The notes beneath the pieces were generated by a model. The model made no database searches and was not told the origin of the DNA. It was given only the letters and a program-made list of their open reading frames with translations. From NCBI RefSeq assembly GCF_003002815.1, contig NZ_PVTF01000005.1:434001-498000 (forward strand): a stretch of 64,000 bases of DNA, given 5' to 3'. Below are positions 1 through 17,752 of this stretch, piece after piece (the first letter of the stretch is position 1; each line of letters begins with the position of its first letter). Source of the stretch: Umezawaea tangerina. Its GTDB lineage: Bacteria; Actinomycetota; Actinomycetes; Mycobacteriales; Pseudonocardiaceae. Made by a program: the position numbers and the translations under genes.

Positions 1-1701
1 GAGAGCCTCACCTACGCCGAGCTGGACGCGCGCGCCAACCGCGTGGCCCGGTGGCTGAGGTCGCGCGGGATCGGGCCGGAGAAGGTCGTCGCGGTCCTGC
101 TGCCGCGCTGCCTCGACCTGCCCGTGGCACTGCTGGCCGTGCTCAAGGCGGGCGGGGCTTACCTGCCGATCGACCTCGCCTACCCCGAGCAGCGGCGTGC
201 GTTCATGCTCGCCGACTCGCGAGCGACCGTCGTGCTCACCGAGTTCGGCGCGGCGCTCGACGAGGCCGTCGCAGGTCTGTCGGACGAGGACCCGCGCACC
301 GAGGTCGACCCGGCGAACCCGGCGTACGTCATCTACACCTCCGGCTCCACCGGGCGACCCAAGGGCGTCGTCGTGCCGCACTCAGGAGTGGTCAACCTGC
401 TGGGCGACCGCAGGTTCGCCGAGATGGTCCCGCGCGGCGAGCGGGCGAGCCTGTGGACGAGCACGAGCTTCGACGGGTCGATCCCGGAGCTGTTCCTCGC
501 CCTGGGCCGGGGCGCCGAGCTGCACGTCGTCCCCGAGCACCGGCGCACGGTGCCCGCCGACTTCGTGTCCTGGCTGGCCGAGCACGACATCAAGGCCGGG
601 TACCTGGCGCCGTTCATGGTCGCCGAGGCCGCGAGCGCGCCCGCGCTGCCGCGGCTGCGCGGCCTGACGCTGGCGACCGAGCCGATCGCGGCGGGCACGT
701 ACGGCAGGCTCGCCGAGCGGCTGGACGGCTGCTACGTGGTCAACGCCTACGGCCCCACCGAGGCCAGCGTGGCGGCGAGCGCGTACGTGGTGCCGACTCC
801 CCCGCCCGCCGACGGGATCCTGCCGATCGGCACGCCGCTGCGCAACGTCCGGCTGCACGTCCTGGACGCGACCGGCGCGCCGGTGCCCGCGGGGGTGACC
901 GGTGAGCTCTGGATCGCGGGCGCCGGGCTGGCCCGCGGCTACCACGGTGACCCCGGCCTGACCGCGGACCGGTTCCGGCCCGACCCGTTCGGGCCGCCGG
1001 GCGGCCGGATGTACCGGACCGGTGACCTGGCCTGGCGCCGGGCCGACGGCGAGCTCGTGTTCGCGGGTCGGGCGGACGACCAGGTGAAGCTGCGCGGCCT
1101 GCGGATCGAGCCGACCGAGGTGCAGGCCGCGATCGAGCGCCACCCCCGGGTGTCCGACGCGCACGTCACCGTCCACTCCGGACGGTTGGTGGCCTACGTC
1201 GTCCCGGCGGACGGCGACGGCGTCGACGTGGACGACCTGCGGACACGGCTCGCGGGGTGGCTGCCGCGCTTCCTGGTGCCGAGCCACTTCGTCGAGCTGG
1301 CCGCGCTCCCGTTGCTGCCCAACGGGAAGCTCGACCGGGAGATGCTGCCCGCGCCCAGCACCGCGCGCTCCGGCCGGGGCCGCGCGCCGCGGACCGGGCT
1401 GGAGCGGCTGGTCGCGGCGATCTGGACCGACCTGCTCGGTGTCCGCGACCCGAGGGTCACGGACAACTTCTTCCGCGAGGGCGGGGAATCGCTCACCGCG
1501 GCCCGCGTGGTGGCGCGGCTGTCGGCGGAGCTGGGGGTGGAGGTGCCGGTGCGGCTCGCGTTCGAGCACGAGGCGCTCGGCGACCTGGCCGCCGCGGTCG
1601 CCGACGTGGCCGCCCGTCCGACGGCGTCGATCCCGCTGGTGCGGTCGGCGCCGACCACGCTCGCGGACCTCGTCGCGGCCGACACGACCCGGAAGGGCTG
1701 A
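1..1701 (+). CDS. NRPS, A-PCP module (5' end outside window)
   Basis: This is the 3' part of a nonribosomal peptide synthetase gene; the frame is open from base 1, so the start lies upstream. The adenylation domain shows A3 ([13 protein letters not shown], around base 330), A5 (NAYGPTE, around 743) and the A10 lysine (LLPNGKLDRE, around 1315). A carrier domain follows, with the phosphopantetheine serine in REGGESLT (around 1477). The specificity residues read by eye are D-G-P-Y-T-A-A-V-A(-K), which matches no code I know, so the substrate is open. The A4 region (FDGSIPELF) is also unusual, since a Trp is normally found where Pro sits. The stop is two bases before the ATG of the next synthetase, so the genes are co-transcribed. 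The protein presumably feeds its aminoacyl group to the C domain of that neighbour. The A-PCP assignment is certain; the substrate is not. Confidence 0.95.
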   Translation, partial: ESLTYAELDARANRVARWLRSRGIGPEKVVAVLLPRCLDLPVALLAVLKAGGAYLPIDLAYPEQRRAFMLADSRATVVLTEFGAALDEAVAGLSDEDPRTEVDPANPAYVIYTSGSTGRPKGVVVPHSGVVNLLGDRRFAEMVPRGERASLWTSTSFDGSIPELFLALGRGAELHVVPEHRRTVPADFVSWLAEHDIKAGYLAPFMVAEAASAPALPRLRGLTLATEPIAAGTYGRLAERLDGCYVVNAYGPTEASVAASAYVVPTPPPADGILPIGTPLRNVRLHVLDATGAPVPAGVTGELWIAGAGLARGYHGDPGLTADRFRPDPFGPPGGRMYRTGDLAWRRADGELVFAGRADDQVKLRGLRIEPTEVQAAIERHPRVSDAHVTVHSGRLVAYVVPADGDGVDVDDLRTRLAGWLPRFLVPSHFVELAALPLLPNGKLDREMLPAPSTARSGRGRAPRTGLERLVAAIWTDLLGVRDPRVTDNFFREGGESLTAARVVARLSAELGVEVPVRLAFEHEALGDLAAAVADVAARPTASIPLVRSAPTTLADLVAADTTRKG

Positions 1702-1703
1702 TC

Positions 1704-4700
1704 ATGGCGGAGCTGCGCAGCGCGAGGCCGTCGTTCGGCCAGGAGCGGTTCTGGTTCCTGGAGAAGCTGGCACCCGGCAGGCCGGTGTACCACCTGCCGG
1801 TCGCCCTGCGGCTGCGTGGCGACCTCGACGTGGCCGGGGTGCGCGCGGCGCTGGCGGCGGTCCTCGCCCGGCACGAGTCGTTGCGCACCAGGTTCGTCGA
1901 GGTCGACGGCCGGGTCTACCAGGTGGTCGAGGACGCCGTCGAGGTGGAGCTGCCGACGGTCACGGCCACCGAGGCGGACCTGCCGGACCTGCTCACCCGC
2001 GCCGCGGCGGTCCCGTTCGCGCTCGACCGCGCGCCGCTGCTGCGGGCACTGCTGGTGCGCTTGGCCGACGACGACCACGTGCTGCTGGTGACGACGCACC
2101 ACATCGTCTCGGACGCGGTGTCGCTGGAGGTGTTCCTCACCGAGCTGGCGCAGGCCTACCGCGGCGCCACGTCGGCCGAACCGCCGTTGCAGTACGTCGA
2201 CTTCGCCGAGTGGCAGCGCTCCCGGCTGTCCGGGCCCGCGCTCGAGGAGCCGCTGGCGTTCTGGCGCGAGCGGCTGGCGGGCGCGCCCGCGCTGCTCGAC
2301 CTGCCGTCGGACCGGCCGCGACCGGCGACGCAGAGCTACGCGGGCGCCACCCACCGGTTCGACCTCGATCCCGCGCTGATGCCCGCCCTGCGGGACCTGG
2401 GCGCGGCCCGCGGGGCGACGCCGTTCATGACGCTGCTCGCCGGGTTCCTCGCGGTGCTGCACCGCTACACCGGCCGCACGGACCTCGTGGTGGGCACGCC
2501 GGTGGCCAACCGCGCCCTGCCCGAGCTGGAACGGATCATCGGCTTCTTCGCCAACACGCTGGTGCTGCGGTCCTCGCTCGACGGCGACCCGTCGTTCGCC
2601 GAGCTCGTCGACCGGGTGCGCGGCGACGCGCTGGACTCCTACCGGTTCGCCGACGTGCCGTTCGAGCGCCTGGTGGAGGACCTGGCCCCGACCCGCGACC
2701 CCAGCCACTCCCCCTTGGTGCAGGTGCTGTTCGCGCTGCACGACTCGGCCGCGCTCACCATGGAGCTGCCGGGGCTGCGCGTCGATCCGGTGCCCGTCGA
2801 CAGCGGGGCGAGCCAGCTCGACCTCGCGCTCACCGTGGAGACCGGCGCGACCGGCTCCACCGGTGTCGTCGAGTACAACACCGACCTGTTCGACGAGGCC
2901 ACCATCGCCCGGTTCGCCGGGCACCTGACGACGCTGCTCGCCGGCGCGGTGGCCCACCCCGACCGACCGCTGTCCCTGCTGCCGCTGACCACGACGGCCG
3001 ACGCCGACGTGGTGCGCGCCCTCAACGCCACCGACCGCGACCACGCGCGCGACGCGCTCGTGCACGACCTGGTCGCGGAGCAGGCGCGGACGCGGCCGGA
3101 CGCACCCGCGGTCGTGTTCGGCTCCACGACGCTGACCTACCGGGAACTCGACGAGCGGGCCGACCGGGTGGCGCGGTACCTCGTCGGACGCGGCATCGGT
3201 CCGGAACGCCTGGTCGCGGTGGCGATGCGGCGCTCCCAGGACCTGCCCGTGGCCCTGCTCGGCGTGCTGAAGGCCGGTGGCGCCTACGTCCCGGTCGACC
3301 CCGAGTACCCGCTGCGGCGCAAGGAGTACATGCTCGCCGACTCCGGCGCCTCCGTCGTGCTCACCGGGCTCGACGACGTCGAGGACCACCCCGTCGACAC
3401 CTCCGCCGTGCCGGTGCGACCGGACAACCCGGCGTACGTGATCTACACGTCGGGCTCGACCGGCACGCCGAAGGGCGTGACCGTGCCGCACCGGGCGCTG
3501 ACGAACTTCCTGCACGCCATGGACGACCACGTCACCGCGGGCCCCGGATCGGTGTGGCTGGCCACGACTAGCGTCTCGTTCGACATCGCCGCGCTCGAAC
3601 TGCTGTGGACGCTGGCCCGCGGTGTCACCGTCGTGGTGCAGGGCGACACCCCGACGCCGCCGGTCGACTTCAGCCTGTTCTACTTCGCCAGCGCGGACAG
3701 CGGCACCCAGGACGCCTACCGGCTGCTCCTGGAGGGAGCCAAGTTCGCCGACCGCAACGGGTTCACCGGGGTCTGGACGCCCGAGCGGCACTTCCACCCG
3801 TTCGGCGGCCCCTACCCCAACCCCGCCGTCACGGGCGCGGCCATCGCCGCGGTGACCGAGCGGATCGCCATCCGCGCGGGCAGCGTCGTGCTGCCGTTGC
3901 AGGACCCGCTGCGGGTCGCCGAGGAGTGGTCCGTCGTGGACGGACTGTCCGGTGGGCGCGCGGAGGTGTCGTTCGCGTCGGGCTGGCTGGCCGACGACTT
4001 CGTGCTGGCACCGGACAACCACGCCGACCGCAAGCGCGTGCTGGCCGACGGCATGGCCACCGTGCGGGCGCTCTGGCGCGGCGAAGCGGTCAAGCGGGTC
4101 AACGGGGCGGGCGAGGAGATCGAGGTCCGCACGCACCCCCGGCCGGTGAGCGCGGAACTGCCGACGTGGCTGACCTCCGCGGGCGACCCCGCGACGTTCG
4201 AGGCCGCGGGCCGGGAGGGCGTCAACCTGCTCACCCACCTGCTCGGCCAGGACCTCGACGAGCTGGCGGTCAAGATCACCCGATACCGCCGGGCGTGGAC
4301 CGAGGCCGGGCACGCGGGCACCGGACGGGTCGCGCTCATGGTGCACACCAGCGTCGACCGCGATCCCGACGTGGTGCGCGAGCGGGTCCGCGAGCCCTTC
4401 ATCGCCTACCTGCGCAGCTCGCTCGGCCTGATCAAGCAGCTGCTCGCCGGGCCCGACGGTCCGGTGGACCTCGACTCGGTGCCACCCGCGGAGCTGAACG
4501 AGCTGCTGTCGGTGTTCTACGACCGCTACGCCACCGAGGCCGGCCTGTTCGGGTCGCCGGAGTCGTGCCGTCCGATGGTGGACCGGATCGTCGCCGCGGG
4601 CGTGGACGAGATCGCGTGCCTGATCGACTTCGGCATCGCCCCCACGACCGTGCTGGAGTCGCTGCCGCAGCTGGACAAGCTGCGCGCGGCCTACGTTCGC

Positions 4701-6668
4701 TCCGACGGATCCGACGACACCGTGCCGACCCAGTTGGTCCGCCACGGCGTGACGCACGTGCAGTGCACACCCTCGCTGGCGCTCGCGCTCACCGGCACGG
4801 ACACCGGGCTCGCCGCGTTCCGCGGGCTCGACCAGCTGGTGATCGGCGGCGAGGCCTTCCCCGCCGCGCTCGCCACCCGGCTGGCCGAGTCCGGGCAACG
4901 CGCCGTGCTCAACATGTACGGGCCCACCGAGACCACGATCTGGTCCACCCTGCACCCGGTGGACCCGGCCGCGGGCGCACCACCGATCGGGCGGCCGATC
5001 GCCAACACCCGCGTCCACCTCGTCGACGCCGCGGGCGAGCCCGTCCCGGTCGGCGTGCCCGGTGAGCTGCTGATCGGCGGCGAGGGCGTGGTGCGCGGCT
5101 ACTGGGGCAGGCCGGGGCTGACCGCGGAGCGCTTCGTCCCGGACCCGTTCGGGCCACCGGGAGGACGGCTGTACCGCACCGGGGACATCGCGGTGCTGCG
5201 GCCCGACGGCGTGCTGGAGTACCGGGGACGCGCCGACGGGCAGGTGAAGCTGCGCGGCAGGCGGATCGAGCTGGGCGAGGTCGAGTCCGCGATCGAGGCG
5301 AGCCCCGAGGTCGACCAGGCCGTGGTGTGCGTCGCGGACGAGGGCACCGACCGCGCCGCGCTGGTGGCCCACGTGCGGCCGCGCGGCGGTGTGGACAGCG
5401 GCGACGACCCCGAGCTGGTCGCGCTGCCGACCGGTGGGGTGCTCGCGACGGTGGACCGCCGGGGCGCCGCCGAGCTGCACCAGGAGATCTTCGTCAACGA
5501 GGAGTACCTCGACGGCTTCCTGCGGCTGTGGGACGACGCCGTCGTGGTCGACGCGGGCGCGAACGTCGGCGCGTTCACGCTGTTCGCCCACCGGCGGTGC
5601 AGGCCCGCGCGGATCATCGCGGTCGAGCCGATCCCGCCGACGTTCGCCCGGCTGGAGAAGACGGTGCGGGCCAACGGGATCGACGCCGTCCTGGTCAACG
5701 CCGGGCTGGCGGCCGAACCGGGCACGGCGTCGTTCACGCACTACCCGGAGCTGACCGGGCTGTCGGGCCGCTACGCCGACCCGGTCGCCGACCGCAAGCG
5801 GGCGGCCGTGCTGTTCGACGGGCCCGAGCGGGACGTGGAGCAGTTCCTCGACCAGCGCTACCGCAACGAGTCCTACGACTGCCCGCTGACCACGCTGTCC
5901 GAGGTGATCCGCGAGCACGGGCTCGACCGGGTCGACCTGCTGAAGGTCGACGTCGAGCGCGCGGAGATGGACGTGCTCGACGGCCTGTCGGACGGCGACT
6001 GGGACCTGGTGCGCCAGATCTGCGTCGAGGTCGAGGGCGACGACCGGCGCGACGAGGTGCTGGCCGTGCTGACCAAGCGCGGGTTCGAGACGCACTCGCT
6101 CGTCCTGCTGAACGCGCTCGAGGTGTCCATTGTGCACGGTCGTCGGCCGAACCTGCCCGCACGGCCCGCGACCCGCGCCGACGCGCCCCTCGACCTCGCG
6201 GCGCTGCGGGCGCGGCTGGCCGACGTGCTGCCGGGGTACCTGGTGCCCGAGCGGTTCGTGGCCGTGGCGGGGTTCCCGCTCACCCCCAACGGGAAGGTGG
6301 ACCGGCGCGCGCTGGCCGCGACGCCCGCCGCACCGCTGCCCGTGCGGGTTCCCGTCGCGCCCCGCGGTGACCTGGAGCGGCGGCTGGCCACGGTGTGGTC
6401 GTCCGTGCTCGGCGTCGACTCGATCGGCGTGCACGACAACTTCTTCGACGCGGGCGGGAACTCCCTGCTGCTCATCAGGGTGCACGCGAAGCTCGCGGAA
6501 CTGGGCGTCGGAGCCCCCCGGCTCGTCGACCTGTTCTCCCACCCCACCATCGCCTCACTGGCCGCCTCGCTGGAGGGCGCGGCGCCCGTGGCACAAGAGG
6601 ACCTCGAGGACCGGCGCACCGGCCGCAGCCGGTTCCTCCAGCGCAGAAGGGGAGGCTCCGGTGCTTGA
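1704..6668 (+). CDS. NRPS C-A-PCP with monooxygenase and FkbM methyltransferase embedded in a Gly-type A domain
   Basis: This 1654-residue synthetase starts at an ATG two bases after the previous stop. Domains in order are C (about 1-430, HHIVSDA, so Ala replaces the usual Gly of HHxxxDG), the A-domain N-part (about 450-650), a luciferase-like flavin monooxygenase (about 654-997, opening DFSLFYF), the A-domain middle (about 998-1225), an FkbM-family SAM methyltransferase (about 1233-1480, VVDAGANVGAF), the A-domain C-part with A10 (LTPNGKVDRR) and a PCP (about 1553-1630, DAGGNSLL). Specificity residues read by eye are D-I-L-Q-V-G-M-I-W, close to the glycine code DILQLGLIWK. The monooxygenase sits between A4 and A5, the position recalled for MtaG of myxothiazol biosynthesis. 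FkbM enzymes methylate hydroxyls. I infer that glycine is loaded, alpha-hydroxylated and O-methylated on the carrier. The product is not proven, and the methyltransferase could act on another group. Confidence 0.93.
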   Translation: MAELRSARPSFGQERFWFLEKLAPGRPVYHLPVALRLRGDLDVAGVRAALAAVLARHESLRTRFVEVDGRVYQVVEDAVEVELPTVTATEADLPDLLTRAAAVPFALDRAPLLRALLVRLADDDHVLLVTTHHIVSDAVSLEVFLTELAQAYRGATSAEPPLQYVDFAEWQRSRLSGPALEEPLAFWRERLAGAPALLDLPSDRPRPATQSYAGATHRFDLDPALMPALRDLGAARGATPFMTLLAGFLAVLHRYTGRTDLVVGTPVANRALPELERIIGFFANTLVLRSSLDGDPSFAELVDRVRGDALDSYRFADVPFERLVEDLAPTRDPSHSPLVQVLFALHDSAALTMELPGLRVDPVPVDSGASQLDLALTVETGATGSTGVVEYNTDLFDEATIARFAGHLTTLLAGAVAHPDRPLSLLPLTTTADADVVRALNATDRDHARDALVHDLVAEQARTRPDAPAVVFGSTTLTYRELDERADRVARYLVGRGIGPERLVAVAMRRSQDLPVALLGVLKAGGAYVPVDPEYPLRRKEYMLADSGASVVLTGLDDVEDHPVDTSAVPVRPDNPAYVIYTSGSTGTPKGVTVPHRALTNFLHAMDDHVTAGPGSVWLATTSVSFDIAALELLWTLARGVTVVVQGDTPTPPVDFSLFYFASADSGTQDAYRLLLEGAKFADRNGFTGVWTPERHFHPFGGPYPNPAVTGAAIAAVTERIAIRAGSVVLPLQDPLRVAEEWSVVDGLSGGRAEVSFASGWLADDFVLAPDNHADRKRVLADGMATVRALWRGEAVKRVNGAGEEIEVRTHPRPVSAELPTWLTSAGDPATFEAAGREGVNLLTHLLGQDLDELAVKITRYRRAWTEAGHAGTGRVALMVHTSVDRDPDVVRERVREPFIAYLRSSLGLIKQLLAGPDGPVDLDSVPPAELNELLSVFYDRYATEAGLFGSPESCRPMVDRIVAAGVDEIACLIDFGIAPTTVLESLPQLDKLRAAYVRSDGSDDTVPTQLVRHGVTHVQCTPSLALALTGTDTGLAAFRGLDQLVIGGEAFPAALATRLAESGQRAVLNMYGPTETTIWSTLHPVDPAAGAPPIGRPIANTRVHLVDAAGEPVPVGVPGELLIGGEGVVRGYWGRPGLTAERFVPDPFGPPGGRLYRTGDIAVLRPDGVLEYRGRADGQVKLRGRRIELGEVESAIEASPEVDQAVVCVADEGTDRAALVAHVRPRGGVDSGDDPELVALPTGGVLATVDRRGAAELHQEIFVNEEYLDGFLRLWDDAVVVDAGANVGAFTLFAHRRCRPARIIAVEPIPPTFARLEKTVRANGIDAVLVNAGLAAEPGTASFTHYPELTGLSGRYADPVADRKRAAVLFDGPERDVEQFLDQRYRNESYDCPLTTLSEVIREHGLDRVDLLKVDVERAEMDVLDGLSDGDWDLVRQICVEVEGDDRRDEVLAVLTKRGFETHSLVLLNALEVSIVHGRRPNLPARPATRADAPLDLAALRARLADVLPGYLVPERFVAVAGFPLTPNGKVDRRALAATPAAPLPVRVPVAPRGDLERRLATVWSSVLGVDSIGVHDNFFDAGGNSLLLIRVHAKLAELGVGAPRLVDLFSHPTIASLAASLEGAAPVAQEDLEDRRTGRSRFLQRRRGGSGA

Positions 6669-9663
6669 CGACGACCTGGTCGCCATCGTCGGGATGGCGG
6701 GCCGGTTCCCCGGCAGCCCCTCGGTGGCCGAGTTCTGGGCCAACAACCTGGCGGGCGCCGAAGGCGTGTCGTTCTACAACCGTGACGAGCTGATCGAGGC
6801 GGGGGAACCCGCAGAGCTGGTCGACGACCCCGCCTACGTCCCGGCGAGCGCCCCGCTGGCCGACCACGACCGGTTCGACGCGGAGCTGTTCGGCTACAGC
6901 CCGCGCGAGGCGCGCGTGATGGACCCGCAGCAGCGGGTGTTCCTGGAGTCGGCGTGGGAGGCGCTGGAGGACGCGGCCTGCGACCCGGACCGGCTGCGCG
7001 CCCGGATCGGCGTGTTCGCGGGCACCGGCATGACCCGCTACCTGTGGCAGAACGTCGTGCCAGCGCTGGGGTCCTCGCTCAACCCGCTGGAAGCCAGGCT
7101 GCTCAACGACAAGGACTTCCTGGCCACCACCACGAGCTACAAGCTGAACCTGCGCGGTCCGAGCGTGAACGTGCAGACCGCGTGCTCCACGTCCCTGGTA
7201 GCGGTGCACCTGGCCGCGCAGAGCCTGCTGTCCCACGAGTGCGACCTGGCGCTGGCGGGCGGCGTCACGATCGAGCTGCCGCACCGGGTCGGGTACCTGT
7301 ACCAGGAGGGCGGGGTCAACTCGCCGGACGGGCACTGCCTGCCGTTCGACCACCGCGCCGCCGGGTGCGTCGGCGGCAGCGGCGTCGGGGTCGTCGTGCT
7401 GCAACGGCTCGGCGAGGCCAGGGCGCAGCACCGCCGCGTGCACGCCGTCCTGCGCGGGTCGGCGGTCAACAACGACGGCTCGGGCAAGGTCGGGTTCACC
7501 GCGCCCAGCGTGACCGGGCAGGCCGCCGTGATCCGCGACGCGCTGTTCATCGCCGAGGCCAAGCCGGAGAGCATCGGGTACGTCGAGACGCACGGCACCG
7601 GTACGCCGATCGGCGACCCGATCGAGGTCGAGGCGCTGCGCGGGGCGTTCGACGGGGTCGCCGCGGGCAGCGTCGCGCTCGGCTCGACCAAGGCCTCCAT
7701 CGGCCACCTGGACGCCGCGGCGGGCATCGCCGGGCTGATCAGGGCGGTGCTGGCGGTGCGCGAGGGCGTGCTGCCGCCCAGCCCGTACTTCCAGGCCCCG
7801 AACCCGTTGCTCGAACTGGACGGCTCACCGTTCTACCTGCCGACGACGGCCTCCGCGTGGCCGCTGGGCGCCACCCCGCGCCGGGCCGGGGTGAGCTCGT
7901 TCGGCATGGGCGGCACCAACGCGCACGTCGTGGTCGAGCAGCCCCCGGCGGTGGCCGACAGCGCGCCGGACGTGCCCGGCAGGCAACTTCTGGTGCTGTC
8001 CGCGGCGAGCGAGCGGGCGTTGGAGGCGTGGCGGCTGCGGCTGGCCGACACCATGCCGGACAACGGGCTCGCCGACGTCGCGCACACGCTGGCGACCGGG
8101 CGCCGCCGCCTGCCGCACCGGCTGGCCGTGGTGGCCGACTCCCCGCGGCAGGCCGCCGAGCGGCTGCGGGACGTGAGCGCGCGGCGCATCCGGATCGCGG
8201 GCGACCCGCCTTCGGTGGTGTTCCTGTTCCCCGGTCAGGGCGCTCAGCGGCCAGGGATGGCCGCGGACCTGCACCGGGTGGCGCCGGTGTTCCGCACCGA
8301 GCTGGACCGGTGCGTGGAGCTGTTCGAGCGGCACGGCGTCCACCTGCGGAACGCGCTGCTGGACGCCGACTCCGACCCGGACGCCTTGCGCCGCACCGAT
8401 CTCGCCCAGCCCGCGTTGTTCGCGCACTCGTACGCGTTGGCGCGCCAGTGGGAGCACTGGGGTGTCACGCCGAGCGCGATGGCGGGCCACAGCGTCGGCG
8501 AGTACGTCGCCGCCTGCCTGGCGGGCGTGCTGGACCTGCCGGACGCCGTGCGGCTGGTGGCCAGGAGGGGCGCGCTGATGGCGGCGCTGCCCACCGGCTC
8601 GATGCTCGCCGTGGCCCTGCCCGAGGACGAGGCGGTCGCGCTGCTGGTCGACGGCGTGGAGCTGGCGGCGGTCAACGGGCCCCGGCAGTGCGTGCTGTCC
8701 GGCCGGACCGAGGCGGTCGAGCGGCTGCACGCGACGCTGTCGGCGGACGGCGTGCGGTGCAAGGTGCTGGAGACCTCGCACGCGTTCCACTCGGCGATGC
8801 TCGAACCGGTGCTCGAGCCGTTCGAGCGGGAGGTGCGCCGAACCCCGCTCCGGCCGCCGACGATCCCGTTCACCTCCTGCGTCACGGGAGCGCTCGTCGA
8901 GCCGGGCCAGGCGACCGACCCGGCCTACTGGGCGCGCCAGGCACGTCGGGCGGTCCGCTTCGGCGACGCCCTCGACCTGCTGGCCGCCGATCCCGGCACG
9001 CTGTTCGTCGAGGTCGGTGCGGGCCGGGGCATGGCGGAACTGGCCCGCAGGCACCTGCGCACCCTCCGGCACGCGCCGATCAGCTCGCTGCCGCTCACCG
9101 GTGGCGAGCACGACGAGCAGCTGCTGGCCGCGTTGGGCCAGGCCTGGGAGCACGGCGTCGACGTCGACTGGACGGCGGTGCACGAGGGCGGGTCCCGGCA
9201 CGTCGTGGCGCTGCCCGGCTACCCGTTCACCCGCAAGCGGCACTGGATCACCGCACCCGGCAGGTCCTCGGTCGCGACCGCACCGGTCGACGAGCCGGCA
9301 CCGGTGGCCGCCACGTCCGGGCAGGCCGCCACGAGCGATGCCGAGGCCATCGTCATCGAGGTGTTCCGGGAGGCGTTCGGCGTGGACGACATCGGCCCCC
9401 AGGACGACTTCTTCGGCCTCGGCGGGACCTCGCTGCTGGCCGCCGAGGTGGTGCACCGGCTGCGGAAGCGGTTCGCCGTCGAGTTCCCGGTGCGGTACCT
9501 GTTCGAGGCGCCGGGGGTGGCGGACCTGGCGGCGCTGATCAGCGGCACCGCCCAGGGCGACGCCGAGGACGACCTCGACGCGCTCGTCGCAGAGCTGTCC
9601 GCGTTGTCCGACCACGAGATCGCCCACCTGCTCGCCGACGGCACGGACGGAGTGGCGCGATGA
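6661..9663 (+). CDS. Type I polyketide synthase, KS-AT-ACP
   Basis: This 1000-residue single PKS module starts at a GTG that overlaps the upstream stop by 8 bases. The ketosynthase (about 1-430) keeps the Cys-His-His triad: TACSTS, ETHGTGTPIGDP and KASIGHLDAAAG. The acyltransferase (about 520-810) has GHSVGEY and the HAFH motif, which indicates malonyl-CoA. The ACP (about 890-965) carries GLGGTSLL. No ketoreductase, dehydratase or enoylreductase is present, so a beta-keto group would result unless a partner acts in trans. The tail after the ACP (ALSDHEIAHLLA) looks like a docking helix matching the N-terminus of the next protein. By gene order it adds two carbons to the glycine-derived unit of the preceding protein. 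The monooxygenase in the next gene is the obvious tailoring partner. Confidence 0.95.
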   Translation: MLDDDLVAIVGMAGRFPGSPSVAEFWANNLAGAEGVSFYNRDELIEAGEPAELVDDPAYVPASAPLADHDRFDAELFGYSPREARVMDPQQRVFLESAWEALEDAACDPDRLRARIGVFAGTGMTRYLWQNVVPALGSSLNPLEARLLNDKDFLATTTSYKLNLRGPSVNVQTACSTSLVAVHLAAQSLLSHECDLALAGGVTIELPHRVGYLYQEGGVNSPDGHCLPFDHRAAGCVGGSGVGVVVLQRLGEARAQHRRVHAVLRGSAVNNDGSGKVGFTAPSVTGQAAVIRDALFIAEAKPESIGYVETHGTGTPIGDPIEVEALRGAFDGVAAGSVALGSTKASIGHLDAAAGIAGLIRAVLAVREGVLPPSPYFQAPNPLLELDGSPFYLPTTASAWPLGATPRRAGVSSFGMGGTNAHVVVEQPPAVADSAPDVPGRQLLVLSAASERALEAWRLRLADTMPDNGLADVAHTLATGRRRLPHRLAVVADSPRQAAERLRDVSARRIRIAGDPPSVVFLFPGQGAQRPGMAADLHRVAPVFRTELDRCVELFERHGVHLRNALLDADSDPDALRRTDLAQPALFAHSYALARQWEHWGVTPSAMAGHSVGEYVAACLAGVLDLPDAVRLVARRGALMAALPTGSMLAVALPEDEAVALLVDGVELAAVNGPRQCVLSGRTEAVERLHATLSADGVRCKVLETSHAFHSAMLEPVLEPFEREVRRTPLRPPTIPFTSCVTGALVEPGQATDPAYWARQARRAVRFGDALDLLAADPGTLFVEVGAGRGMAELARRHLRTLRHAPISSLPLTGGEHDEQLLAALGQAWEHGVDVDWTAVHEGGSRHVVALPGYPFTRKRHWITAPGRSSVATAPVDEPAPVAATSGQAATSDAEAIVIEVFREAFGVDDIGPQDDFFGLGGTSLLAAEVVHRLRKRFAVEFPVRYLFEAPGVADLAALISGTAQGDAEDDLDALVAELSALSDHEIAHLLADGTDGVAR

Positions 9664-12164
9664 CGCGGACCCTGCGGCAGCGGCTCGCGGCGTTGACGCC
9701 TGCGGAGCGGGCGGCCCTCACCGAGCGGCTGCACACCCGTGCGGCGAAACCCGCCAAGGCGTTGGACTTCAGCCTCTTCTACTTCGCCAACGCCGCCGAG
9801 GACGAGCCCCGGTACCGGTTCCTGCTCGACACGGCCAAGCTGGCCGACCGCCTCGGTTTCACCGCGGTGTGGACGCCGGAACGGCACTTCCACTCGTTCG
9901 GCGGGCTCTACCCGAACCCGTCCGTGCTCAGCGCGGCGCTCGCGATGGCCACCGAACGGGTGCGGATCCGCGCGGGCAGCCTCGTGCTGCCGCTGCACCA
10001 CCCGATCCGGGTCTGCGAGGACTGGTCGGTCATCGACAACCTGTCCGGCGGGCGGGTCGGCCTGTCGTTCGCGACGGGCTGGCACGGCACCGACTTCGCG
10101 CTCGCCCCCGACCACTACGCCGACCGCCGCGAGCGGACGTGGGACGCGATCGACGTGGTGCGCAAGCTGTGGCGCGGCGAGGACGTGGACTTCCCCGGCC
10201 CTGACGGGACCACCGTGACGCCCACCCTGTTCCCCCGCCCCGTCCAGCCGGACCTGCCGGTGTGGGTCACGGCGTCCGGCAACCCGGACAGCTTCACCAA
10301 GGCGGGCGAGCTCGGCGCGAACGTGCTGTCGGCGCTGATCGGCCAGTCGCCCGAACACCTCGCCGCCAACATCGCCCGCTACCGCGCCGCCCGCGCCGCG
10401 CACGGGCACGACCCGGACGCGGGCACCGTGACCGTGATGCTGCACGCCTACCTCGACCAGGACGCGACGGCCGCGCGGGAGCTGTGCGCGGCGCCGCTGC
10501 GCGAGTACCTGCGCGGCTACCTCGAGCAGCAGCGGGACATGGTCGGCGGCCCCGACCAGGAGGGCGACGTCGAGGCGCGGCTGGACTTCGCCTACGAGAT
10601 GTACTCCACGCAGACCGCGCTGATCGGCTCGCCGGACACCGTCGGGCCGCTGCTGGCCCGGCTGGCCGCCGCGGGCGTGGACGAGATCGCCTGCCTGGTG
10701 GACTTCGGCGTCCCGTTGGACAAGGCGGTCGAGAGCATCCACCTGCTGGCGCGGGTGAAGGACGGCCAGGCGGCCACCGGCGCGCCGGTCACCACCGCGC
10801 CGCTGGGCATCGACCAGGAGCGCATGCGCAGGCTGGAGCTGGCCAACCCCGCCGGTCCGGCCAACTACGTCACCACGGGGCTGCGGATCCGCGGACCGCT
10901 GCGCGCCGACGCGCTGGACGACGCGCTGCGGTTCGTCGGCGGCAGGCACGAAGCGCTGCGCACCACGTTCGACACGCGCGACGGCGTCGCCCTGCAGCGG
11001 ATCGGCGCCGACTTCGCGCTGCGGCTGGAGCGGTTCGACGTGACCGACGTGCCGCCGGAGGAACGGGTGCGAGCCGCGCGGGAGCTGCGCACGGCGTTCG
11101 CCCGGCGCCCGTTCCCCGACGACCGGCCCCCGGTGCGGGTGGCGCTGATCAGGCTCGCCCAGGACGACCACCAGCTGGCGGTGGTCAAGCACCACATGAT
11201 CACCGACTGGGTGTCGTTCACCGTCTTCCTCAGGGAGCTGTTCGGCGCGTACCTGGACCTCTCCCTCGGCCGCACGCCGGACCTCCCGCCCGCGGTGCCC
11301 TACCGGGCGTTCGCCGAGCGGGAGCGCGAACGGTTGCGCGGCGGGAAGATGGACGACCAGCTCGACCACTGGGTCAAGCAGCTCGACGGCGCACCGGAGC
11401 CGGTCACCCTGCCGATGGCCGGGCGGCGCCCGGAGAAGCAGACGTTCGAGGGCGAGCGCGCCTGGATGCTGTTCTCCCACGAGACCACGGCCAAGCTCAA
11501 CGCGGTCAGCCGGGCGGAGCGGGTCACGCCGTTCATGACCGCCTACACCGCGCTGGTGGCCTGCCTGGGCCACGTCACGGGCGAGTCGGACCTGGTGCTC
11601 GGCTCACCCACGGCCAACCGCGACTGGGCGCCGGAGAACCTCCTCGGGCTGCTGCTGCGGCCGATGCCGCTGCGCACCCGGCTGCGGCCGGAGCAGACCT
11701 TCCGGTCGGCACTGGCCGACGTCCGGAAGGTCACCTCGGCGGCGCTGGCCAACGCCGAGGTCCCCTACCAGGCGCTGGTGGACCGGCTGGCGCCGGAACG
11801 CGACCTGGACTGGCTGCCGCTGTTCAAGCTGCGGTACCTGTTCCTGCGCTGGGACGAGCCGGTGGCGGTCTCCGGGCTGACCCTGAGCCCGCTCGACACC
11901 GACCCCAGGACGTCGCTCTACGACGGCACCGTCTCGCTGTGGGACGACGCGCACGGCATGTTCGGCCGGATCGAGTACAACTCCGGCCTGTTCGCGCGCG
12001 ACACCGTCGTGTCGACCATCGAGACCTTCGCCACCATGCTCGACGCCGCGGTCACCGATCCGGACCTGCGCGTCGGCGACCTGCCCACGTCGGGCTCCCG
12101 GCGCTTCCACGTCGACCAGGACGAGCTCGAAGTCCGCCTCGGCGACCAGCGTCCCCGTTCCTGA
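9660..12164 (+). CDS. Luciferase-like monooxygenase fused to a condensation domain
   Basis: This 834-residue protein starts at an ATG overlapping the PKS stop (ATGA). Residues 1-32 look like a docking segment (LTPAERAALTERL). Residues about 35-375 form a luciferase-like flavin monooxygenase of the kind found inside NRPS/PKS lines (DFSLFYFAN, VWTPERHFHSFGG, SFATGWHGTDF), clearly related to the one inserted in the A domain of the gene starting at 1704. Residues about 395-820 form a condensation domain whose core reads HHMITDW (bases 11190-11210), with Trp where Gly is normal. There is no carrier domain, so it must act on the ACP before it and the PCP that opens the next protein. A likely role is oxidation of the ACP-bound beta-keto chain followed by transfer. 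The site oxidised, and whether the C domain is active, cannot be read from the sequence. Confidence 0.9.
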   Translation: MTRTLRQRLAALTPAERAALTERLHTRAAKPAKALDFSLFYFANAAEDEPRYRFLLDTAKLADRLGFTAVWTPERHFHSFGGLYPNPSVLSAALAMATERVRIRAGSLVLPLHHPIRVCEDWSVIDNLSGGRVGLSFATGWHGTDFALAPDHYADRRERTWDAIDVVRKLWRGEDVDFPGPDGTTVTPTLFPRPVQPDLPVWVTASGNPDSFTKAGELGANVLSALIGQSPEHLAANIARYRAARAAHGHDPDAGTVTVMLHAYLDQDATAARELCAAPLREYLRGYLEQQRDMVGGPDQEGDVEARLDFAYEMYSTQTALIGSPDTVGPLLARLAAAGVDEIACLVDFGVPLDKAVESIHLLARVKDGQAATGAPVTTAPLGIDQERMRRLELANPAGPANYVTTGLRIRGPLRADALDDALRFVGGRHEALRTTFDTRDGVALQRIGADFALRLERFDVTDVPPEERVRAARELRTAFARRPFPDDRPPVRVALIRLAQDDHQLAVVKHHMITDWVSFTVFLRELFGAYLDLSLGRTPDLPPAVPYRAFAERERERLRGGKMDDQLDHWVKQLDGAPEPVTLPMAGRRPEKQTFEGERAWMLFSHETTAKLNAVSRAERVTPFMTAYTALVACLGHVTGESDLVLGSPTANRDWAPENLLGLLLRPMPLRTRLRPEQTFRSALADVRKVTSAALANAEVPYQALVDRLAPERDLDWLPLFKLRYLFLRWDEPVAVSGLTLSPLDTDPRTSLYDGTVSLWDDAHGMFGRIEYNSGLFARDTVVSTIETFATMLDAAVTDPDLRVGDLPTSGSRRFHVDQDELEVRLGDQRPRS

Positions 12165-12175
12165 GGAGTACCACA

Positions 12176-15100
12176 GTGCACACCCGCGACGAAGTCCACG
12201 CGGTCGTCACGCCGGTATGGCGCGACGTCCTCGGCAGGTCCGAGCTGCCCGCGGACGCCGATTTCTTCGAGCTGGGCGGCGATTCCATCCAGGGCGCCCG
12301 GCTCATGGGCAGGCTGCGCGAGCTGTTCGGCCTGCCCCTCCCCCTCCAGCTGATCTTCTTCCACCCGGCGCTGCCCGACTTCACCACCGCCGTGGGCGAG
12401 GCGGCCGAGCAGCTCCGGGCGGAACCGGCGGACAGCACCCCGAGCACCGCGGGCCCGCTGCCGCTCTCGGCGCAGCAGGAGGAGCTCTGGGTCGCCGACC
12501 AGCTGACGCCCGGCAACCTCGCCTACACCGAACTGCTGCCGCTGCGGCTGACCGGCCCGCTGGACGTGGCCGGGCTCCAGACCTCCGTCGACGCACTGGT
12601 GGCCCGGCACGAGTCGCTGCGCACGAGGTTCCCCACGGGCCCGGACGGCGTCCCGCACCAGGACGTGCTGCCCGCCCTGCGGGTGGCGCTCGACCGGGTC
12701 GACGTGGCCGACGTGGACAAGGCGCGGCAGGTCGCGCTCGACCGCCTCACCGAGCCGTTCGACCTCGCCGAGGGGCCGCTGGTGCGCGCGGTGCTGCTCG
12801 ACATCGACCCGGACGACCACGTGTTCCTGCTGTACGCGCACCACATCGTCGCGGACGGCCTGTCGCTCGCCGTGCTCTGCGACGAACTCGCCGACCACTA
12901 CGCCGGACGCGGGCTGCCCCAGCCCGCCCCGACCACCCGCGACCGCCGCCCGGCCGACCTCGCCCGTCAGCTGGAGTACTGGAAGCAGCAGCTCCACGGC
13001 GTGCGACCGCTGGACCTTCCGCTGGACCGACCTCGCGCCGCGGTGCGCGACAACGGCGGGAGCAGGCTGCGGTCCACGATGTCCGGCGAGCTCCGCGACG
13101 CGGTGCGCGCGCTGGCCCGCGAGGAGGGCGCGACGCAGTTCGTCGCGCTGCTGGCGGCGTTCCAGGTGCTGCTGGGCCGCTGGGCGGGCACCGAGGACGT
13201 GGCGATCGGCTCGCCGGTGTCCGCGCGGTCGGCGCCGGAGCTGGAGCGCGTGGTCGGCTACCTGGTCACCATGGCCACCTTCCGCGGCGACCTGTCCGGC
13301 GACCCGAGCTTCCGGGAACTGCTGCGGCGCACCCGTGACGTGGCTTTCGGCGCGCTGGCCAACAGCGACGTGCCGTTCACCAGCGTGGTGGCGGAACTGG
13401 CGCCGGAGCGCGACCAGTCGCGACCGCCGATCTTCTCGGCGACCCTGGTGTCGCAGCCCACCCCGCCCACCCTGGTCGCCGACCTCGGCGACGTGACCGG
13501 GGTGTCGTTCCCGGTGCCCCGCCGGTACAGCACCTACGACCTGACGCTGTACGCCTGGGACGCGCCCGACGAGCTGATCATCGACATCGAGTACGCCACC
13601 GCGCTGTTCGACACCTCGACCGCGCGGCGGCTGGCCGAGCAGTTCGCCCGGCTGGTCGAGGGCGCGGTCGCCGCACCGGACGCCCCGCTCTCGACGCTGG
13701 AGATCCTGCCCGAGCCGGAGCTCCGGAAAGTGGTGCGGGACTGGAACGACACGGCGGCGGCGTTCGCGCTGGACCGCCCGGTGCACGAACTCGTGACAGC
13801 GCAAGTACAACGCGCGCCGGACCGGATCGCGGTCGTCGAAGGCGACCGCGAGGTCACCTACGCGGAACTGCACGACCGGGCTACCGTCCTCGCGCGACGG
13901 CTGCGCGAGCACGGCGTCGGGCCGGACGTGGTGGTGGCCGTGCGGATGGCGCGGTCGGTGGACCAGCTCGTGGCGCTGCTGGCGGTGTGGCACTCGGGCG
14001 GCGCCTACCTGCCGCTCGACCCGGCCTATCCGGCCGAGCGGCTCGACTTCATGATCACCGACAGCGGGGCGCGGCTGCTGGTCACCGCGGCGGCGGGCGG
14101 CGGGCACGAGGTGCTGCCGCTCGACGGCGACGCACCGGCCGCACGCGAGTCCACTGTGGACGACCTCGCGTACGTGATCTACACCTCGGGCTCGACGGGC
14201 GAGCCCAAGGGCGTGCTGGTACCGCACCGGGGAATCCTGAACCGGATCCTGTGGATGCAGCACGAGTACGGGCTCACCGAGGACGACGTGATGCTGCAGA
14301 ACGCGGCGTACACGTTCGACTTCTCGGTGTGGGAGTTCTTCGGACCGCTGGTGCTGGGCGCGCGCGTGGTGCTGCCCGACGCCGACGGGCACCGCGACAA
14401 CGCCCAGCTGGTCGAGCTGATCGCCCGCCACGGCGTGACCACGGTGCACTTCGTGCCGTCGATGCTGCGCTACTTCCTGGCCGAACCGGAACTGGCCCGC
14501 TGCACCGGGCTGCGGCGGGTGTTCAGCGGCGGCGAACCGCTGCCCACCGCGCTCGTCGCCGAGTTCTCCGCGCGCTTGGGCCACGTCGAGCTGCACAACC
14601 TGTACGGGCCGACCGAGACCAGCGTGGACGTCACGCACTGGCCGGTCGCGCGGGACGAGGCGGCGGCGGTCATGCCGATCGGCCGTCCGATCGACAACAC
14701 CACGTGCTACGTGCTCGACGACCGGATGCGCCCGCAGCCGATCGGCGTGCCGGGCGAACTGCACATCGGCGGCGTGCAGCTGGCGCGCGGTTACCTCGGC
14801 AAACCGGGGCTGACGGCGGAGCGGTTCGTAGCCGACCCGTTCGGCCCGCCCGGCGGCAGGCTGTACCGCACCGGTGACCGGGTGCGGTGGCGCGCGGACG
14901 GCGTGATCGAGTTCCTCGGGCGGATCGACCGGCAGGCCAAGGTCCGCGGGTTCCGCGTCGAGCCCGGCGAGGTCGAGGCCGCCCTCACCGCGCACCCCGG
15001 AGTCCGCGAAGCGGCGGTGGTCGTGCGCGAGGACGAGCACGGCGAACGGCGGCTGGTCGCCTACCTGGTGGGCGAGCCGGTCGGCACGGCGCCGCTGCGC

Positions 15101-16774
15101 GCGTGGCTGGCCGACCGGCTGCCCGACCACTCGATCCCGACCGCGTACGTCGAGCTGGACCGGCTTCCGCTGTCCCCCAGCGGGAAGCTCGACCACGAGG
15201 CGCTCGCGGCACCCACCGGCGACCGGCCCACCGTGGCCGCCGGGTACAGCGCGCCGGTCGGCGAGCGCGAAGAACTGCTCGCCGGGCTGTGGTCGGACGT
15301 GCTCGGCGTGGACCGGATCGGCCGCGACGACAACTTCTTCGAGCTGGGCGGCGACTCGATCCGGGGCATCCACGTGATCGCCAAGGCCCGGCGCGCGGGC
15401 CTCGCGGTGACCGTGCCGCAGCTGTTCCGCCACCAGACGATCGCGGAGCTCGCCGCGGTGGCCACGGCCGTGGGCTCCGCGCCCGCGCCCGCCAAGCCCG
15501 TGGGGGCGACGTTCCCGCTCACGGCGTTGCAGATCGGCATGGTGCGAGAGGCGGACCTGGCTCCGGGCAAGGGGATGTACGTCGTGCCCGCCGAGGCGCT
15601 GCTGTCCGGCGACGTCGACCCGGACGCGCTCCGCGCGGCGTTCGCGGCGCTCATCGCCCACCAGCCGGTCCTGCGCACGTCGGTCAGCGGGGACACCCAG
15701 ACCGTGCACCCGGCGGTCGAGCCGGTCTTCAGCTACGAGGACTGGAGCGCCTACCCCGAGGCCGAGCAGGAGCGGCGCAGGCACGAGCGGCTCGAATCCG
15801 AGTGGCGGGCGGGATTCCGGCTGGACGCGGCGCCGCTGTCCCGGCTCCGCCTGGCCCGCCTGGCCGACGACCGGCACAGCATGGTGTGGACGAGGCACAA
15901 CGTGCTGCTCGACGGGTGGAGCTACGCGCGGCTGTTCGACGAGCTGCTCCGGCTGCACGCGGCCATCCGCGACGGCGAGCCGGTGCCGGAGCTCGCCGCG
16001 CCGGAGTCGTTCGGGCGCTACGTCGACTGGCTCGCGCCCCGCGCCGAGGCGGCGGCGGACGCGCTGTGGACGGAGTTCCTCGCCGACCTGCGGCCCGTGA
16101 CGCTGTTCGACCCCGCGCCGATCGCCGGGCAGGCCCCGTACGAGGAGCTGCGGTTCGAGCTGCCCGCCGAGGCCGAGACCTTCGTGCACCGCTCCCGGCT
16201 GACGCTCAGCGCGATGCTCGAGGGCGCGTGGGCGGCGGTGCTCGCCCGGCACACGGCCACGACGGACGTCCGGTACGGCCTGGTGTTCTCCACCCGCCCG
16301 GCCGAGCTGCCCGCCGTCGAGGACATGCTCGGGCTGCTGATCAACACCCTGCCCTCCGGCCTGCGGGTGGACCCGGAGCTGCCGGTGGTCGAGTGGCTGC
16401 GGTCGATCCAGGACCGGGGCATCCGGCTCAAGGAGCTGGCGACCGCCAGCCTGGAGGTGCTGCGCGAGCGCGCGGGCGGCCCGCTGTGGGACACGTTGCT
16501 GCTGCTGCACAACTACCCGCACAACTTCGACGACGCGCTGCCCGGCGGCCTGCGGATGCTCGACACCCAGGGGTTCTCCAGGGTCGGCGCGGCGCTCATC
16601 GTGTCGGTGGACCCCCGACCGCTGCGGGTGGCGATGCTCTTCGACACCGCGAGGGTCGACGCGGACACGGTGCGGCAGCTCGGCGCCGACCTCGCCGAGC
16701 TGCTCACCGCGATGATGGCCGATCCCGACCGGCCGGTCGGGGAACTGCTCGGCCCGCGCCCTCAGGACGGCTGA
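12176..16774 (+). CDS. NRPS, PCP-C-A-PCP-C
   Basis: This 1532-residue synthetase starts at a GTG behind a clear GAGGAG ribosome site. Domains in order are PCP (about 1-75, ELGGDSIQ), C (about 95-515, HHIVADG), A (about 536-1020, [14 protein letters not shown]10 PSGKLD), PCP (about 1023-1095, ELGGDSIR) and a terminal C domain (about 1113-1532). The terminal C core is RHNVLLDG (bases 15893-15916), with the first His replaced by Arg. The first PCP has no A domain in this or the preceding protein. Specificity residues of the A domain read by eye are D-F-W-H-F-G-L-V-D, a mixture of the serine and threonine codes, so a small hydroxy amino acid is a weak guess. It is the last synthetase of this cluster and has no thioesterase, so release by the terminal C domain or by an enzyme in trans is implied. 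Confidence 0.95.
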
Positions 16775-16784
16775 GGCGGGCCGG

Positions 16785-17549
16785 TCACGGTCCCGGTGGC
16801 GCTTCCAGGTCGGACTCGACCGCGGAAGTGATCATCGGGACCGACTCCGGCCGGAAAAAAGCGTCGTCGTCACCGGGCAACAACCGGAGCCGGAATGACG
16901 CGGCGGTGTGGGACTTCCATTCCGCCACGTCATCCGGGGGGACGACTCCGTCGAATTCCCCGACGAACGCGGAAATCGGGCAGCGCACCACGCGATCAGG
17001 AGGAGACTGGTACTTCTCGACCAACAGCGAGTCCGCGCGGTAAGTCGGCAGCATGAGTTCGGCGAAGAACGGATCGGCCTTCAACGGGCTGTCCTCGCGC
17101 ACCCGGATCGGGTCCGCCAGGAATTCGGCGTCGCTGAGCCGGTCATTGGTCACCGCGGGCGGGGCGATCAGGTGCGGCGCCGTTTCGGCCGACACGAAGA
17201 GGTGGAGCGGACCGGGCACACCCGAGTCCTCCTCCAGCTTCCGCGCCAGCTCGAACGCGACGAGCGCGCCCATGCTGTGCCCGAAGAACGCGTAGGGCAC
17301 GTCCAGCAGCCCGCGCAGCCCGTCCACCAGCCGCTCCACGAGCTCGGCCATGTCCGCGACGGCCGGTTCCCGCAGACGAGCCTCCCTACCAGGCGTTTGC
17401 ACCAGTACCGGCTCGACCTCCTCGCCCAGCCGGTCGGCGAGTTCGCGGTAGCCCGAGGCGCCCTTGCCCGCGTACGGAAAGAAGAACAACCGCACCGGAC
17501 GGCCGTCCTCCACCGGACGCCGGTACGCGACCCAGTCGTTCTTCGCCAC
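16785..17549 (-). CDS. Type II thioesterase, catalytic His not at its usual place
   Basis: This 254-residue alpha/beta hydrolase belongs to the stand-alone thioesterases that clear misloaded or stalled carrier domains. The GTG start shares one base with the mbtH stop, so the two genes are coupled. The N-terminal FFFPYAGKG motif and the nucleophile GHSMGA are present, as is an acidic site in GEFDGVVPP. The usual PGGHFF segment carrying the catalytic His instead reads LLPGDDDAFF, with no His. Either another residue completes the triad or the enzyme is impaired. The gene converges on the last synthetase, ten bases away, and belongs to the left cluster by position. Family assignment is firm, activity is not. 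Confidence 0.9.
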   Translation of the reverse strand: MAKNDWVAYRRPVEDGRPVRLFFFPYAGKGASGYRELADRLGEEVEPVLVQTPGREARLREPAVADMAELVERLVDGLRGLLDVPYAFFGHSMGALVAFELARKLEEDSGVPGPLHLFVSAETAPHLIAPPAVTNDRLSDAEFLADPIRVREDSPLKADPFFAELMLPTYRADSLLVEKYQSPPDRVVRCPISAFVGEFDGVVPPDDVAEWKSHTAASFRLRLLPGDDDAFFRPESVPMITSAVESDLEAPPGP

Positions 17550-17752
17550 TACCGGACCTGCTCTTCCATGAGCCGACGCAGGCTGAGCGGCCGCATGTCG
17601 CTCCAGACCTCGTCGATGTGCGCGAGGCATTCCGCCTTGTCCCCGCCGAATCCGTCCTGCCGCCACCCGCCCGGAATCGCCTTGCCCTCGGGCCAGATGG
17701 AATACTGCTCCTCGTCATTGAGGACCACGATGTACCGCAATGTTTCAGCCAT
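17549..17752 (-). CDS. MbtH-like protein
   Basis: This is a 67-residue MbtH-family protein, the small partner that binds and activates NRPS adenylation domains. The family signature is present: NDEEQYSIWP, an IPGGW turn, then CLAHIDEVWSDMRP. The ATG at 17752 is preceded by GGGGAGGAA. It is first in a two-gene unit with the thioesterase and is presumably needed by the A domains of the left cluster. It is distinct from the second MbtH gene at 50513-50725. The 158 bases upstream, up to the next gene on the other strand, must hold both promoters. Confidence 0.96.
   Translation of the reverse strand: MAETLRYIVVLNDEEQYSIWPEGKAIPGGWRQDGFGGDKAECLAHIDEVWSDMRPLSLRRLMEEQVR

Follow-up and report, generated by a model that had tools for sequence, protein, structure and literature searches.

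Architecture of the doubly interrupted adenylation domain

The stretch of DNA analyzed here, hereafter the window, comprises 64,000 nucleotides (positions 434001-498000) of contig NZ_PVTF01000005.1 (C5) in the Umezawaea tangerina genome, which totals 10.7 Mb in 34 contigs; 40 kb upstream were also read. Our subject is a single nonribosomal peptide synthetase (NRPS) module of 1654 residues (P0001), encoded on the forward strand at 1704..6668. Pfam and NCBIfam models resolve it into a condensation (C), an adenylation (A) and a carrier (T) domain, and the A domain houses two further enzymes, a luciferase-like monooxygenase (LLM) and a methyltransferase of the FkbM family.

The C domain, with the motif HHIVSDA, lies at 1734..3002 (Pfam Condensation, residues 11-433), and the A domain, delimited by Pfam and by motif positions, begins with a part reaching to A4 (3075..3653). 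The first insert, the flavin mononucleotide (FMN) type LLM, occupies 3666..4694 between A4 and A5, as supported by NCBIfam, conserved columns and Foldseek. The second part of the A domain (A5-A8; 4719..5399), placed by motif positions and the reading of the specificity code, carries the code residues Q, V, G, M, I and W. The FkbM insert follows at 5415..6149 between A8 and A9, on the evidence of Pfam, NCBIfam, conserved columns and a structural model. The third part, located by its motifs A9 (LPGYLVPE) and A10 (NGKVDR) at 6180..6338, leads into the T domain at 6381..6566 (Pfam PP-binding, residues 1560-1621; GGNSLL). All these features are on the forward strand.

The LLM insert matches the NCBIfam model TIGR04020 (seco_metab_LLM) over its full length (model 1-341, residues 656-994, 8.7e-145, 482.1 bits against a cut-off of 244.45) and Pfam Bac_luciferase at residues 660-968 (8.6e-45). 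The second insert is recognized by TIGR01444 (fkbM_fam; residues 1280-1443, 1.4e-30, 106.6 bits against a cut-off of 37.7) and by Methyltransf_21/FkbM (residues 1283-1462, 5.9e-14); it scores 53 bits against PF05050 (cut-off 22.7) and keeps the S-adenosylmethionine (SAM) binding motif DAGANVG. Pfam detects AMP-binding in two stretches, and AMP-binding_C at 1192-1230, where only the first half of that model is matched. The motifs that we take to be A3, A4 (FDIA), A5 (NMYGPTE), A9 and A10 were located at residues 581, 626, 1070, 1509 and 1529, with the LLM starting at 655, VKLRGRR at 1181 and the FkbM core at 1282, so that foreign catalytic domains stand between kept A motifs, as in other interrupted A domains. 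A first-pass annotation of this DNA had placed both inserts within 3663-6150 of an otherwise intact A domain and had proposed a search with domain models. The search bears it out, both families being matched above cut-off, the A motifs being kept, and that span agreeing with where the LLM begins (3666) and the FkbM ends (6149); only the position of the FkbM insert, given there as before A10, had to be corrected to between A8 and A9.

Substrate code and insert type

Anchoring on the A motifs gives the code DILQVGMIW. The glycine domain of DhbF1 from B. subtilis has DILQVGLIWK (PMC4169593), one residue apart over the shared positions, and four glycine A domains bearing a MOX domain are all listed with DILQLGMIWK in the part of the source available to us (PMC12283262). 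The glycine assignment made in the first-pass annotation is supported, and the exact code DILQVGMIW was found in no paper by our literature search. The A codes of the remaining modules were legible only in part.

We then read codes in the window and in 138 other loci. Among LLM-interrupted A domains 81 of 83 are of the glycine type (DILQ or DIVQ), the exceptions being L121 (DALQLGASW) and the unreadable L188, with L180 and L202 read only in part; 63 of the 83 come from the genome_contigs scan (the best 80 of 590), whose patterns included YGPTE..W and which ranked matches by likeness to the A domain of the window. Glycine-type codes occur in 16 of the 17 LLM-interrupted A domains from family loci picked by their LLM alone. 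A quite different picture emerges from loci picked by FkbM alone: their 21 FkbM-only A domains have 14 Ser-like, 3 Thr-like, 4 other and no glycine codes, the published references being DVWHLSLVDK for Ser and DFWNIGMVHK for Thr (PMC12283262, seen in part). An additional FkbM-interrupted A domain, in L217, is of the Ser type. A domains without either insert in the same loci start with DILQ in 12 of 112 cases, and all four A domains with both inserts (the window, L128, KN37 L215 and Nostoc L216) are of the glycine type. FkbM inserts thus accompany mostly hydroxy amino acids and LLM inserts accompany glycine. As glycine offers FkbM a hydroxyl only if the LLM makes one, the LLM would, on a simple interpretation, supply the substrate of FkbM.

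Recurrence and phylogeny of the insert pair

A tblastn search of plasmids with the LLM-A-FkbM stretch returned 83 records, two of them with at least 80% coverage, from Streptomyces sp. KN37 (71%) and Nostoc sp. C052 (44%). The KN37 cluster is orthologous to that of the window (module 65%, polyketide synthase (PKS) 65%, LLM-C protein 66%, last NRPS 58%, hydrolase 66%, MFS protein 70%); a flavin reductase gene lies downstream in it, and its first NRPS has no methyltransferase insert. What follows the module in the Nostoc plasmid is a protein with a C domain instead of a ketosynthase (KS), so a downstream polyketide is not required as the target of FkbM. The third record, Holophagales UBA5704 (L128), has C-A[LLM][FkbM]-T after a carrier in one open frame, which by eye opens with a fatty-acyl-AMP-ligase-like region; a lone FkbM and then a PKS lie downstream on a contig with runs of N. 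These three bacteria represent three phyla, and an alignment of the four paired A domains shows that the A motifs and the cores of both inserts are kept throughout. The view that the pair is unique to the window is rejected by these three records.

The pair is rare but recurrent in distantly related bacteria. FkbM matches were found in 108 of 390 genomes of the family (up to 7 candidates scored in each), and no LLM beside an FkbM in the same A domain occurs, besides the window, among 36 family regions, which comprise all listed FkbM matches in frames of more than 1000 residues and some smaller ones and include one, L050, that is uninformative as it ends at a contig end. Likewise, the pair is present in 0 of 395 other genomes drawn from the phylum and in 0 of 392 genomes of one further genus (at most 2 candidates scored per genome in each). 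In that genus LLM-in-A matches occur at 19 places in 18 genomes, and three matching genomes of the phylum draw belong to it. More pairs may exist, as the genome_contigs scan covers its best 80 matches and relatives of the Holophagales genome lie outside the coverage of these scans.

For the LLM tree, 7 of 85 LLM-in-A loci (unread, partial or other) and 28 near-alike rows, mainly from Rhodobacteraceae, were removed before building, the latter by hand, leaving 50 rows. The pair requires three changes on this tree, and the starred branches force all three, gains and losses being indistinguishable on it; label shuffles gave as low a number in 45 of 500 cases. A single clade of the paired rows, a group defined by architecture, is rejected by the approximately unbiased (AU) test (p = 0.033), which was made once a quick tree had already been inspected. 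Built from 44 rows, the FkbM tree groups 14 mostly Ser-type rows in one starred clade and 3 Thr-type rows in another, leaving the Ser-type L043 and L047 outside the former.

Structure models and conservation of the inserts

The first-pass annotation had suggested structure prediction across the interrupted A domain. An AlphaFold2 model of residues 445-1633 (30 alignment rows) has a mean pLDDT of 80.6 and a pTM of only 0.51. In a Foldseek search the model of the two-insert A domain retrieves 5wmm, in which a methylation domain interrupts the A domain of what we take to be TioS, at rank 1 and the flavin monooxygenase domain 6ket at rank 2; by sequence the closest solved LLM is likewise 6ket, from PuwE (E 1.8e-102). 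A sequence search of solved structures gave no relative of the FkbM insert at E 0.1. Modelled alone (3 rows) this insert reaches pLDDT 82.0 and pTM 0.83, and SAM-methyltransferase folds are its best matches in the PDB (E 3.6e-07 at best), with modest query-normalized TM-scores of 0.39-0.52 among the 50 matches listed.

The LLM insert keeps 68 of 69 columns that are at least 95% conserved in 49 other sequences, and the FkbM insert 34 of 36 columns at least 85% conserved in 43 others. That the inserts are mere remnants we judge unlikely, given that the conserved columns are largely kept in both.

Predicted chemistry

From the domain content, the glycine-type code, the largely conserved motifs and the recurrence of the pair we infer what the two inserts do, in which order, and what they yield: the module would probably combine glycine activation, oxygenation by the LLM and O-methylation by FkbM to give an N-acyl-alpha-methoxyglycyl unit. 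The A domain would load glycine and the C domain would join it to the upstream peptidyl chain. The LLM, using reduced FMN and O2, would then hydroxylate C-alpha of the N-acylated glycyl thioester, and FkbM with SAM would O-methylate the resulting hemiaminal hydroxyl. The methyl group would trap as an N,O-acetal an N-acyl hemiaminal otherwise prone to cleavage, and the KS-AT-ACP protein encoded next would extend the N-acyl-alpha-methoxyglycyl thioester. We place oxidation and methylation after condensation because, on chemical grounds, a free carrier-bound alpha-hydroxyglycyl thioester should lose ammonia. One-module formation of methoxyglycine, as put forward in the first-pass annotation, is the reading best supported by the code, by the pattern of inserts and codes and by the four-way alignment; its picture of a preformed building block gives way to one in which N-acylated glycine is modified.

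Precedents exist for each step. Inserted flavin monooxygenase domains of glycine A domains are described as hydroxylating C-alpha, the carbinolamide then being cleaved in myxothiazol and melithiazol and kept in solanimycin B, in the part of the source drawn on here (PMC10204066). This description argues against oxidation of the glycine nitrogen, with FkbM methylating the N-OH to give N-methoxyglycine or a methyl oxime; the sequence does not show the site of oxygenation and a hydroxyl is all that FkbM needs, yet we regard this as the least probable of the alternatives. For the second step there is KtzH, whose a8/a9 insert O-methylates Ser; inserted methyltransferases are said, in the available part of that source, to act on the substrate after its loading on their own T domain (PMC11355689). 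It is very unlikely, then, that the target of FkbM is a different hydroxyl or an enol, for instance the beta-keto enol formed by the following PKS module, or lies on a later residue. The absence of reductive domains from the next KS-AT-ACP protein and the second LLM that follows would suit such a target, but the FkbM inserts track Ser/Thr-like codes, and the C-domain protein after the Nostoc module weakens the case for a purely downstream polyketide target.

Several observations weigh against methoxyglycine formation. Besides the low pTM of the whole-domain model, the one column lost from the LLM is a His replaced by Q733, and the FkbM insert is changed at two family-typical residues, Asn to T1320 and the His of E-v-H to E1444. 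This His, a feature of the compared rows and not a published mark of FkbM enzymes, is present in 91% of the rows having the column; the position is E in KN37, D in Nostoc and in the Ser-type L043, and H in L128. Support for a grouping of the four paired FkbMs on their tree is only 33/0, which is uninformative. Furthermore, 4 of the 21 FkbM-only A domains are neither Ser- nor Thr-like, some counted codes having an unread or unusual position, and the pattern and ranking of the genome_contigs scan favor glycine codes, which makes 16 of 17 the cleaner figure. Finally, cleavage of the glycine backbone is the role described for MOX (PMC12283262, seen in part). This last description, the missing His of E-v-H and the match of glycine code and a4/a5 LLM site to the myxothiazol/melithiazol modules (PMC10204066) would all fit a release reaction, in which the hydroxylated glycine is cleaved to a terminal amide and FkbM is inactive or acts elsewhere. 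We nevertheless consider release unlikely, as a KS-AT-ACP gene comes next in the operon, in KN37 as well, and FkbM is retained in four records and conserved apart from the changes noted.

Returning to methoxyglycine formation, we lean towards a broader proposal, in which the glycine A domain is a trifunctional cassette that adenylates, C-alpha-hydroxylates and O-methylates its substrate. Such cassettes would have been assembled more than once, in different phyla, by FkbM joining oxygenase-bearing glycine A domains, the methyl converting a device for amide-forming cleavage into an N,O-acetal unit that lets the chain be extended.

Relationship to known systems

The closest counterparts are the myxothiazol and melithiazol modules, which we take to be MtaG and MelG. 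Like the window module these have a glycine A domain with a flavin monooxygenase in the same a4/a5 loop; unlike it, no methyltransferase insert is mentioned for them in the part of the source available (PMC10204066). The window module has both hallmarks of this type, a glycine code and an LLM at A4/A5. SolF of the solanimycin pathway is also a glycine A domain with an oxygenase and retains alpha-hydroxyglycine, but the oxygenase sits at a8/a9, and solanimycin B has a hydroxyl, not a methoxy group (PMC10204066, in part). KtzH of the kutzneride pathway shares an O-methyltransferase at a8/a9, a likeness of site and of O-methylation; it activates serine, where the hydroxyl is already present, whereas the window module has the glycine-type DILQVGMIW, and no oxygenase is mentioned in the part of the source available (PMC11355689). 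Two added enzymes per A domain are seen in ColG and in an engineered a2/a3 plus a8/a9 enzyme (PMC11355689, in part).

A domains with two added enzymes were thus already known, and what is new, within the literature searched, is the pairing of an oxygenase with a methyltransferase at A4/A5 and A8/A9. ColG and the other doubly interrupted A domains considered here carry two methyltransferases, whereas in the window module an oxygenase is proposed to feed a methyltransferase. A natural family of A domains with methyltransferases at both a2/a3 and a6/a7 was reportedly catalogued by Lundy in 2020. Our literature search, whose coverage did not extend to that catalogue of interrupted A domains (Lundy et al. 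2020), found no described A domain with an LLM and an FkbM. It also found no paper joining methoxyglycine to an adenylation domain, methoxyglycine alone giving only unrelated work.

N,O-acetal units occur in bioactive polyketide-peptide hybrids, and the unit predicted here is that of zelkovamycin F/G, which are C-alpha-methoxyglycine peptides, and of the pederin-type N-acyl aminals. The module predicts a one-module route to N-acyl-alpha-methoxyglycine, and a glycine code with an LLM at A4/A5 and an FkbM at A8/A9 provides a sequence rule for such products.

Cluster setting and related loci

The core genes, from a P450 to a T-C-A-T-C NRPS, are all on the forward strand. In window numbering, the P450 (-5434..-4250) was read from the upstream sequence, and the next gene (-4253..1701) encodes a 1984-residue NRPS, A[methyltransferase]-T-C-A-T, whose 3' part (1..1701) lies in the window and whose preceding part is in L010. 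Downstream of the module lie a PKS with KS, acyltransferase (AT) and acyl carrier protein (ACP) domains (6661..9663), the AT motif HAFH of which is presumably malonyl-type, and a second LLM (TIGR04020) fused to a C domain, identified by domain models (9660..12164). This LLM, 66% to its KN37 counterpart, differs at six columns at least 95% conserved among A-domain LLMs; by analogy with the palmerolide LLM, proposed to alpha-hydroxylate a polyketide (PMC8739492, seen in part), it may alpha-hydroxylate the polyketide unit. Domain models further identify the T-C-A-T-C NRPS (12176..16774), and no A domain intervenes between its opening carrier and the C domain of the preceding LLM-C protein. Its last C domain reads HNVLLDG instead of HHxxxDG, as also in KN37.

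On the opposite strand are an alpha/beta hydrolase, probably a type II thioesterase (16785..17549; 66% to the KN37 alpha/beta hydrolase, from which match the start was taken), and an MbtH-like gene (17549..17752), recognized by its motif and by an annotated MbtH gene at the same place in KN37. The genome has nine flavin reductase genes, none of them on contig C5.

Sister clusters in seven family loci (L109-L113, L115, L119) and in L141 and L173 have the order A-T-C-A-T, C-A[LLM]-T, KS-AT without FkbM; such clusters offer a natural control for the contribution of the methyltransferase. Many of the Rhodobacteraceae loci (L143-L171) have a KS-AT-T gene adjoining a lone A[LLM]-T gene with a glycine-type code, and in L195 (Alteromonadaceae) the LLM is placed after the A5-A8 part of the A domain, the site described for SolF. 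Seven loci combine the LLM with another, non-FkbM methyltransferase, which resembles the one in the upstream NRPS. In four of them (L121, L126, L127, L154) the A domain is shared between two proteins, the break falling directly after the methyltransferase, with stop and start overlapping as GTGA or ATGA (e.g. L126:11473-11476), and the second protein opens with the A9-A10 lid, followed by a T domain and, by eye, a reductase-like domain.
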